Positions 58,401-61,400 of a stretch of DNA of 64,000 bases are shown piece after piece (position 1 is the first letter of the stretch; each line of letters begins with the position of its first letter). Origin of the DNA: Styela clava (taxonomy: Eukaryota > Chordata > Ascidiacea > Stolidobranchia > Styelidae); assembly GCF_964204865.1 (NCBI RefSeq), contig NC_135255.1, positions 13,049,135-13,113,134 of the forward strand, written 5' to 3'. A model generated the notes under the pieces. That model had not been told where the DNA came from. It searched no databases and saw only the letters and a program-made list of their open reading frames with translations. Both the position numbers and the translations under genes were made by a program.

Positions 58401-61400
58401 ATACAATGCTATCTTTGCTTTCCAAATTAAACAAGGCTTACAAACATAGGTAAGTAAATCCAATGCTTCAACTACCAGGCCATTGCTTCAAGTGAAGCAA
58501 ATCATCTTTGATTTATATACGAAACAGGATTTATAATTCATTTGTTTTCTTGCAGGATGATCCACTCACCAACTTGAACACTGCCTTCGATGTAGCTGAC
58601 AAATATCTTGATATCCCCAAAATGTTGGACGCTGAAGGTTTGTATTTAGTTCTTTATGAAATAAGATGATTTTGTAACAAAAAAAGCAAAATTCGCATTC
58701 TGCAAACGAAGAAGAAGTCAATGCTCCTGGACTAAAAGTTTTAACGTATTCACAGCCCATTTCAAAACTTGTCTCTAAATCGTACCAAGCGTTTGAAATC
58801 CGCTGAAATAAATTTGATGCAAATAGATTTTTGAATAATACCATTTGAAAAACATGTTTTTGAAGAATTAAGATATTTAAATTTAGTGCATTCTAGTAAT
58901 ATTTAACTGTTATTTTGCCATAATATTTGATTTATGTCATGTTTTTGCCTTGAAATAGGTTCTTTAGTTAGTTACTCACAATCAAAATTGTAAATTGATT
59001 TAGGACTTTTTTGACTTAAAAATCGTTCATTTATCTATCCATCAATTCTAGAATACTGGATTAAGTGTTAGATGGTAGCGACCAAATGAATAGTAACAGA
59101 AAAGCTGTAAGCTGCAAAATTTATTATGGTTCCAATTTCAAATTATCATTTGTATTGATACTGAATCAGAATTTAATACTCCAGCGTGCAATTGTGTTTT
59201 GGAATTTTAATAACAGTCGTTTCGTACAAAAGAGGAAGTCATACTCAGCGTTTTATTGAACGTAATCAGACCCTGATAACGTATAATAAATGATGTAATA
59301 AAATTGTTCACAGAAATGCTTGAAATGGCAAAACCAGATGAAAAGGCAATCATGACGTATGTGTCATGTTACTATCATGCATTCTCAGGAGCACAGAAGG
59401 TACCACAAAAGTGAAACTCCTTTGTGCCTTACTCTGTGGCACTTCTGTCCTTCTCTCCTTTCTCCTGGCTTTTCTGAACTTTAATTCTTCAATTGTTGTT
59501 CCTATATGGGCTATGTATGAAAATCATGGTCAATCTATGTCCACCAACTCTTCCTAAATAATCTTTTTTGATTATTTATTAACTCTTCTTTTCAGGTTTA
59601 TTTTGCATGTTTTCCTAACTTCTTAAAACTAACATTTATTTAATCTAGTTGAATGATACACAAACGAGATTTAAATTTAAATTTTTTTCTTAAATATCAT
59701 TAGATATCCCAATCCCCATTTATTTATTAGGAGATCAATATCATATCTAAGATGTTCCACGGTGCAGAATAATTTGAAATAAGTGAAATTCAACTGTAAT
59801 ATTATTTGATATTATCAGGGATGATAAATTGTGGCCAATTTAATTGCTTCATTGAAGGCATATAAACCCCTTTAAAATTAATTCTCTCGTCTGCAGTACT
59901 GAAATGATAGTTCCAAATTGAAGATTATGTAATTGTCTTTAATTGGTATCTTGATATTCTCCAGAGATGGTAGAGATACCCTATCCTGATGAAAAATCTG
60001 TTATGACTTACGTGTCATGTTTCTACCACGCATTCGCGGAAGATTTACCGGTTTGTTCAAGATCACACATATACCATACCACATCACATATCTTACCAAA
60101 TAAGAACCATATCATATGAGAATTTTGCAGAAAATTATACATTACATATTAAGTCATGTGTGTAATCATCACGCTGGGGTGGGAAAATTACAACCGGAAA
60201 AATAAATATTGTCTCGAAATAAAATATGATTCAGCTATTTACAGCACTTTTGTTATTGTGTTATATCCCATGATAAATGAGATTCCATTTTTTTAAATAT
60301 CTTTTTCAAGTCTATCATTTTTGGTTACCATATTAAAATTTAGCTTTGATGTTACAGAATATATATCGCCCATTTGAATGTAGCGATGGCCTTGATTTAA
60401 ATATGTCGGCATGGTGGGTTTGAAATCTAACTTTCAAATCCCATGCCCCCCACCTCACCCAGGGTGTATAAATTGGGTTTACTATGAAAATATGCCGGTA
60501 ACTATAGTAATATATCAGACTATAGGAGCTCCTCACCTGAGAGTGGCTGCTATTACTGAGCCTTGTTTAGAGAGAATAGCTCATAAATATGTCAAATAAA
60601 AACATCATTGGAAACCTTATGTCATGTTCTGCTTTTTACATGCTATTTCTCTTCCTATTTTTCTATAATTTAACTCATCTTGCATGTGATCTATTTCTTC
60701 TTATATTTCATCTCTTCTTTCTTCCTCATCATATCATAGACATTGTTGACATGGCCAAACCTGATGAACGTTCGATCATGACATATGTCGCTGCTTTTTA
60801 TCATGCTTTCTCTGGTAACGATAAGGTATTCATTCTACTATCATGTGCTTGTCTTACTTACTTCTCTTTTTTTCAGTTTTCGATTTTTTTCATTATAACT
60901 TGTAATATATTTAATAAATGTTGATAATATGTTTCTGGTAATGGAAAGCCCTGTGATTAAATTTCTCTTTTTATGAACAATATTGGCCAATTCAAAATTT
61001 TCTAAAAATGATCGATTCAGAATTGAAAAGATTACTTTCCATTTTTTGTTAGATTTATGATTTCAATGTATCTATTTTGTTGACCGCCAAAACTTTATTA
61101 TTTATAGCAATTTGTCTGAATCCTCTCGTCTCTTATGCGCAGTATTGGTTACAAATATCTTTCGTTAATTATTTTTTCAATTATCTTCAATAGACTGAAA
61201 CTGCAGCTAATCGTATCTGCAAAGTTTTGAATGTCAATCAAGAAAATGAGAGACTTATGGATGAATATGAAAGACTTGCTTCTGATGTAAGTATAGATTA
61301 TTTTTATCCTTGCGATTTGTATGATTCATTTAGTGGAAACCTCATGTTTTAATAAGGTTTTTTGAACGAGTTTGATGAACTGGGCAAGCTGAGACTTTCA

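Follow-up and report, generated by a model that had tools for sequence, protein, structure and literature searches.

The question raised by this locus is whether a single alpha-actinin gene carries three interchangeable versions of one exon at the end of its actin-binding domain, and whether these would be spliced into the message one at a time. The window, i.e., the whole 64-kb stretch of DNA that was analyzed, has an alpha-actinin gene on the + strand. It starts with an ATG at 52418 and extends past the end of the window. The gene model within the window consists of 12 constant coding exons plus one alternative exon (Table 1), and a 460-residue open stretch is obtained with each of the three alternatives. 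The window end cuts the gene off before most of the rod and before the EF-hands.

Domain searches show two CH domains (PF00307, two stretches) in all three isoforms, with scores of 186.9, 193.4 and 193.9 bits for the isoforms with e1, e2 and e3, respectively. One spectrin repeat is found in the 387 residues scanned of each isoform, the gene being cut by the window end. The best PDB matches, obtained with a query that had one wrong residue, are alpha-actinin chains: alpha-actinin 2 (7ank, 4d1e) and the actinin of 1sjj, which we take to be chicken ACTN1. Searches of the 64-kb window turned up each of the 12 constant coding exons once only. When the 460-aa isoforms were compared with the window, extra copies were confined to the exchanged segment, and three other weak matches had E values of 1.4 to 4.0. 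Scans of the window with Rfam (at gathering thresholds) and for tRNAs were empty. A search for relatives of the e1 isoform, with a 255-residue part as the query, gave 27 pattern matches in the genome_contigs collection and four in viral_contigs, none of them confirmed; since both collections are made up of prokaryote and viral contigs, the null result is uninformative on conservation in animals.

Table 1. Exons of the alpha-actinin gene and candidate control elements around its alternative exons
Feature	Positions	Strand	Remarks
First coding exon x1	52418..52519	+	translation ends ...WEKQQRK
Coding exon x2, CH1 start	56190..56294	+	
Coding exon x3	56586..56715	+	
Coding exon x4	57075..57161	+	
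Coding exon x5	57952..58039	+	
Coding exon x6	58275..58353	+	
Constant exon x7, 5' of cluster	58556..58637	+	final G completes first codon of every alternative
Alternative exon e1	59314..59399	+	86 nt, encodes 29 residues, ends SGAQK
Predicted hairpin region at e1 donor	59380..59480	+	-25.3 kcal/mol, z -1.98, 9 of 200 shuffles as stable
Pyrimidine-rich tract (82%) directly 3' of e1	59416..59475	+	candidate PTB-type silencer
TGCATG at 59604 and TAAC...ACTAAC pair at 59616-59633	59604..59633	+	candidate RBFOX and QKI sites
Alternative exon e2	59965..60050	+	86 nt, encodes 29 residues, ends AEDLP
Pyrimidine-rich tract (78%) directly 5' of e3	60668..60727	+	partly e3's own acceptor tract; TGCATG at 60681
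Alternative exon e3	60740..60825	+	86 nt, encodes 29 residues, ends SGNDK
Pyrimidine-rich tract (78%) directly 3' of e3	60829..60888	+	
Constant exon x9, 3' of cluster	61194..61286	+	stop starts 2 nt in if e1-e3 are all skipped
Coding exon x10, spectrin repeat region starts	61649..61774	+	
Coding exon x11, spectrin repeat	62149..62330	+	
Coding exon x12	62693..62822	+	
Coding exon x13	63536..63627	+	gene goes on past window end

The three alternative exons are exactly where an earlier note on this DNA had placed them. Each has AG before it and GT after it, and all are in a common phase, read from the last G of x7. The donor (58637) and the acceptor (61194) that the same note had named for the flanking constant exons both fit the open reading frame. 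Its description of three homologous versions of one 29-residue segment also holds. Sequence identity is 56/86 nt and 17/29 aa between e1 and e2, 59/86 nt and 18/29 aa between e1 and e3, and 50/86 nt and 14/29 aa between e2 and e3, which are the most distant pair; 11 of the 29 residues are common to all three. A repeat finder, unprompted, groups the exons as one three-copy family, where an 81-nt stretch of e1 is matched at 72% identity by e2 and at 70% by e3. With tblastn of each exon peptide against the 64 kb, the other two exons are found at E values of 2e-8 to 4e-11, and the next best match has an E value of 0.61.

The exchanged segment corresponds approximately to residues 245–273 in ACTN4 numbering, with K255 placed on PDEK, and represents the end of CH2 and the start of the neck. 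In the ACTN1-4 chains, the part with which the exon peptides align includes K255 and T259. Position 255 is K in e1 and e2 and R in e3, and position 259 is T in all three. In the available excerpts of PMC4539665, both residues are described as encoded by exon 8, as lying at the CH1–CH2 separation surface and as sites of ACTN4 kidney-disease mutations. By this alignment, the protein segment exchanged here is that of the vertebrate exon 8 switch in ACTN2 and ACTN4.

The reading frame bears directly on how the exons could be used. Only three of the eight possible inclusion combinations are open, and these are the three single inclusions; the other five meet an early stop. Skipping all three exons leads to the stop at the beginning of x9 (Table 1), and pairs or the triple lead to a stop inside e2 or e3. 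The exons thus resemble mutually exclusive tandem-duplicated exons in equal length, in phase and in homology, and the frame stays open with one exon only. As far as the sequence can tell, the principal claim of the earlier note, that the end of CH2 is encoded by three alternative exons in one alpha-actinin gene, is supported, with the addition that the frame permits exactly one of them. Very probably, the exon-8 position of this alpha-actinin gene is occupied by a cluster of mutually exclusive exons, from which three actin-binding-domain isoforms would be made. Each mature mRNA would take exactly one of e1, e2 and e3 between x7 and x9, and the three proteins would differ solely at approximately residues 245–273. 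Messages with zero, two or three of the exons would probably be removed by nonsense-mediated decay, as in ACTN2 skipping, since more exon junctions follow the stop.

The differences between the copies are not distributed as expected of unconstrained sequence. Third codon positions account for 17/30, 16/27 and 21/36 of the nucleotide differences in the three pairs, an excess with p values of 0.007, 0.005 and 0.002. Nonsynonymous distances between copies are 0.25, 0.28 and 0.42, and synonymous distances are infinite (saturated), 1.14 and 4.08. In a neutral simulation taken to the same nucleotide difference count, each of the six directions gave 2–6 runs out of 20000 with an open frame and a protein identity equal to or greater than that observed. 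The simulation is a rough control because it uses a simple composition-weighted substitution model and treats one copy as the ancestor. Judged by these comparisons, purifying selection acts on the protein encoded by all three exons.

These results bear on the other explanations of the array. One is that only two of the exons yield a working protein and that the third, likeliest e2, is a relic or is very rarely used. The distance between e2 and e3, the end AEDLP in place of a GAQK/GNDK-type end, and the two versions in which vertebrate exon 8 is known from the available parts of PMC7782589 and PMC4539665 are in line with this, but e2 keeps all 11 residues common to the three copies and its splice sites are unremarkable, with 11/17 pyrimidines at the acceptor and a GTTTGT donor that is also found at x3 and x7. 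The CH domains of the e2 isoform also score above those of the e1 isoform (193.4 vs 186.9 bits), and the divergence is non-neutral by both the substitution distances and the simulation. A relic e2 is therefore considered improbable.

The exons could also be poison exons, where including two of them or none would serve as a regulated off-switch and the array sets the amount of protein and not its kind. A pure array of this type needs neither homology nor a conserved protein, yet e1, e2 and e3 all encode a constrained CH2 end, and we regard this explanation as very improbable in spite of the early stop in all five wrong combinations and of the decay by which ACTN2 exon-8 skipping reduces ACTN2 (excerpts of PMC7782589). 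The two uses, off-switch and isoform choice, may coexist. An assembly artefact, or collapsed haplotypes placed in tandem, is hardly credible: nothing was found in its favor, the copies are only 58–69% identical in DNA, the intervening introns have nothing in common beyond short two-copy matches of 20–29 nt, and the repetition is limited to this exon, the 12 other exons being single. Mutually exclusive use of all three exons is the preferred reading.

How one exon would be chosen was analyzed from the splice sites, the introns and their motifs. The introns between the alternatives are 565 nt and 689 nt, GT is present at all 15 donors of the list, and none of the 15 resembles a minor-class donor by eye. 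With introns of this length and GT-AG sites, steric or minor-spliceosome exclusion is unlikely; exclusion would therefore rest on regulators and decay. RNA pairing between introns, i.e., docking and selector sequences, has no support from a coarse pairing test with 12 shuffles per pair, where five of six intron pairs are within the shuffle range. The sixth pair (i7-i8b) has -31.2 against a mean of -26.9, sd 1.9, with -31.0 as the best of the 12 shuffles, a marginal and uncorrected difference.

The acceptor of e1 has the poorest pyrimidine tract of the 14 acceptors (8/17), and the predicted fold at the e1 donor has the lowest energy among the gene's 15 donor regions, with a z value of only -1.98. 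When the maximum pyrimidine content in 60-nt windows is compared across the 14 introns, the top three values (0.82, 0.78 and 0.78) are from the introns following e1, e2 and e3, and the next intron has 0.73; by rank this is a 1 in 364 event, seen post hoc. From these features e1 may be weak by default and in need of release, and e3 may be under pyrimidine-tract control.

A scan of nine motif classes compared the cluster introns (2298 nt) with the other introns of the gene (7358 nt). YTCTYT is commoner in the cluster introns, 11 vs 14 (Fisher p 0.021, uncorrected), and the poly-U motif is also higher, 18 vs 24. TGCATG is present twice in the cluster introns and once in the others (33 times in the whole window, both strands counted), and these intron counts are too few to weigh; GCATG (3 vs 6) and the YCAY cluster (2 vs 2) are nominally higher per kb, with counts that are also too small. 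The bipartite QKI motif has two overlapping matches at one place, the pair listed in Table 1, and two in the other introns, again too few. The QKI motif ACTAAY is not enriched in the cluster introns (1 vs 5) and, like the MBNL and CELF motifs, is rarer there than in the gene's other introns. The candidate RBFOX and QKI sites are 205 to 234 nt 3' of e1, and another TGCATG starts 59 nt before e3. The pyrimidine tracts, the e1-donor hairpin and the QKI-like site, as signals for exon choice, are suggestive only. In the mechanism proposed here, tissue factors would pick the exon by pyrimidine-tract binding around e1 and e3, by the hairpin that would mask the e1 donor, and by QKI- and RBFOX-type sites. 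The choice might then tune actin affinity and the neck and so give muscle and non-muscle forms.

Similarity to known chains was considered as a basis for assigning the exons to tissues. Bit scores for e2 are 5 to 11 bits higher against ACTN2/3 than against ACTN1/4 chains, those for e1 are slightly closer to ACTN3/2, and e3 does not discriminate among the ACTN chains. In identities to ACTN2 (7ank) and 1sjj, respectively, e1 has 18 and 21 of 29, e2 has 17 and 15, and e3 has 19 and 20. The bit scores and the identity counts disagree for e1, and muscle and non-muscle labels for e1-e3 by similarity were dropped. The three versions, of whose 29 residues 14 to 18 are identical in pairs, diverge more from one another than 1sjj does from ACTN2 7ank over the same segment, where 21 residues are identical and 8 differ.

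The window has several other features. One uninterrupted frame at 33602-36700 on the + strand, with an ATG at 33677, encodes a 1007-residue class I myosin. The protein has a Myosin_head domain (794 bits) and Myosin_TH1, and its best PDB matches are myosin-Ib and Ic. Genes of the class I myosin family usually have many introns, and the intronless gene is possibly a retrocopy that stayed open. Approximately 150 bp past the myosin stop codon is a 252-bp unit in two tandem copies with 84% matches (36853-37355). A single-exon frame on the - strand (7104-7973) represents a methyltransferase (Methyltransf_11, E 7e-20); it is left unnamed because all 22 of its 22 NCBIfam matches are below curated cut-offs. 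A minisatellite at 24969-25306 has nested periods of 17 to 80 bp, with units such as AGTGTCTGCTTGTTGTGAGTG.

If all three exons are used, this one locus would provide a natural set of actin-binding domains in which only the CH2 end and the neck vary, in a region that holds the ACTN4 kidney-disease positions noted above (PMC4539665, from excerpts). It would also add a further case on the question of whether the actinin exon-8 switch is ancient or was repeatedly invented. A broader proposal is speculative and rather doubtful as a whole: that this is a deuterostome, perhaps a tunicate, in which a single alpha-actinin gene has a three-way exon-8 switch giving distinct muscle and non-muscle actin-binding domains, with the neck changed in e2 (AEDLP for GAQK) and with e1 kept silent by pyrimidine tracts and by a hairpin that masks its donor, so that triplication would have reached what flies reached separately and vertebrates by paralogues. 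The step is modest because the general principle is already known.

Among the matches listed by a literature search, no title concerned a cluster of three exons in an actinin gene of a tunicate, which is not to say that none is in print. A study of alpha-actinin gene structure and alternative splicing by Lek and others in 2010, cited in PMC4550062, would be the likeliest prior report of invertebrate actinin gene structures. A survey of deuterostome muscle genes mentions, in the text available, a supplementary ACTN tree (PMC5888912), and PMC8742874 is without any actinin term.

The exon 8 precedent cited for vertebrates in the earlier note is real for ACTN4 (PMC4539665) and applies also to ACTN2, where the alternative exons 8a and 8b give isoforms 1 and 2 under QKI regulation (PMC7782589); both papers are cited from excerpts, here and below. 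Human cardiomyocytes without QKI produce an ACTN2 message that loses exon 8a or 8b and meets a stop in exon 9, followed by decay, and mouse embryos mutant for Qki have the same exon-8-less product (PMC7782589). The present cluster is similar to ACTN2 in that versions of exon 8 are exchanged and skipping leads to a stop in the next exon, i.e., in exon 9 there and 2 nt into x9 here. It differs in having three versions rather than two, and in that QKI control is demonstrated for ACTN2 whereas the present introns have a single candidate site and no enrichment of ACTAAY. The alternative exon 8 of ACTN4 (ACTN4-SpEx8) is likewise in the actin-binding domain, but its two versions differ by three residues (PMC4539665) and the pairs here differ at 11 to 15 of 29.

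Among invertebrates, the single Drosophila Actn gene is spliced within the actin-binding domain to give non-muscle, larval and adult muscle isoforms, partly under the control of Muscleblind (excerpts of PMC4550062 and PMC3315501), and is thus similar in forming three isoforms from one gene. The larval RT-PCR product is longer in the fly, 402 vs 335 bp (PMC3315501, excerpts), and the fly alternatives are therefore not all equal in length. According to the portion available of PMC8734324, the CELF protein ETR-1 targets the splicing of worm atn-1. The earlier note had contrasted vertebrate paralogues with splicing at this locus. A cluster of the splicing type is very probably present, but the contrast is overstated, because ACTN2 and ACTN4 splice exon 8 themselves and fly Actn makes three isoforms. 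Three isoforms from one actinin gene are not unprecedented, as the fly gene shows. A comparable case in a different gene, relevant only if the animal is a tunicate, is troponin I, for which excerpts of PMC6589888 describe a single Ciona TnI gene with cardiac and non-cardiac isoforms made by splicing, where vertebrates use paralogues. Halocynthia has two paralogous TnI genes instead (same source), so the use of splicing in place of paralogues is not shared by tunicates in general. The kind of gene switch described here is real but familiar, with near counterparts in human and fly alpha-actinin, and its set of exons is larger than the vertebrate pair.
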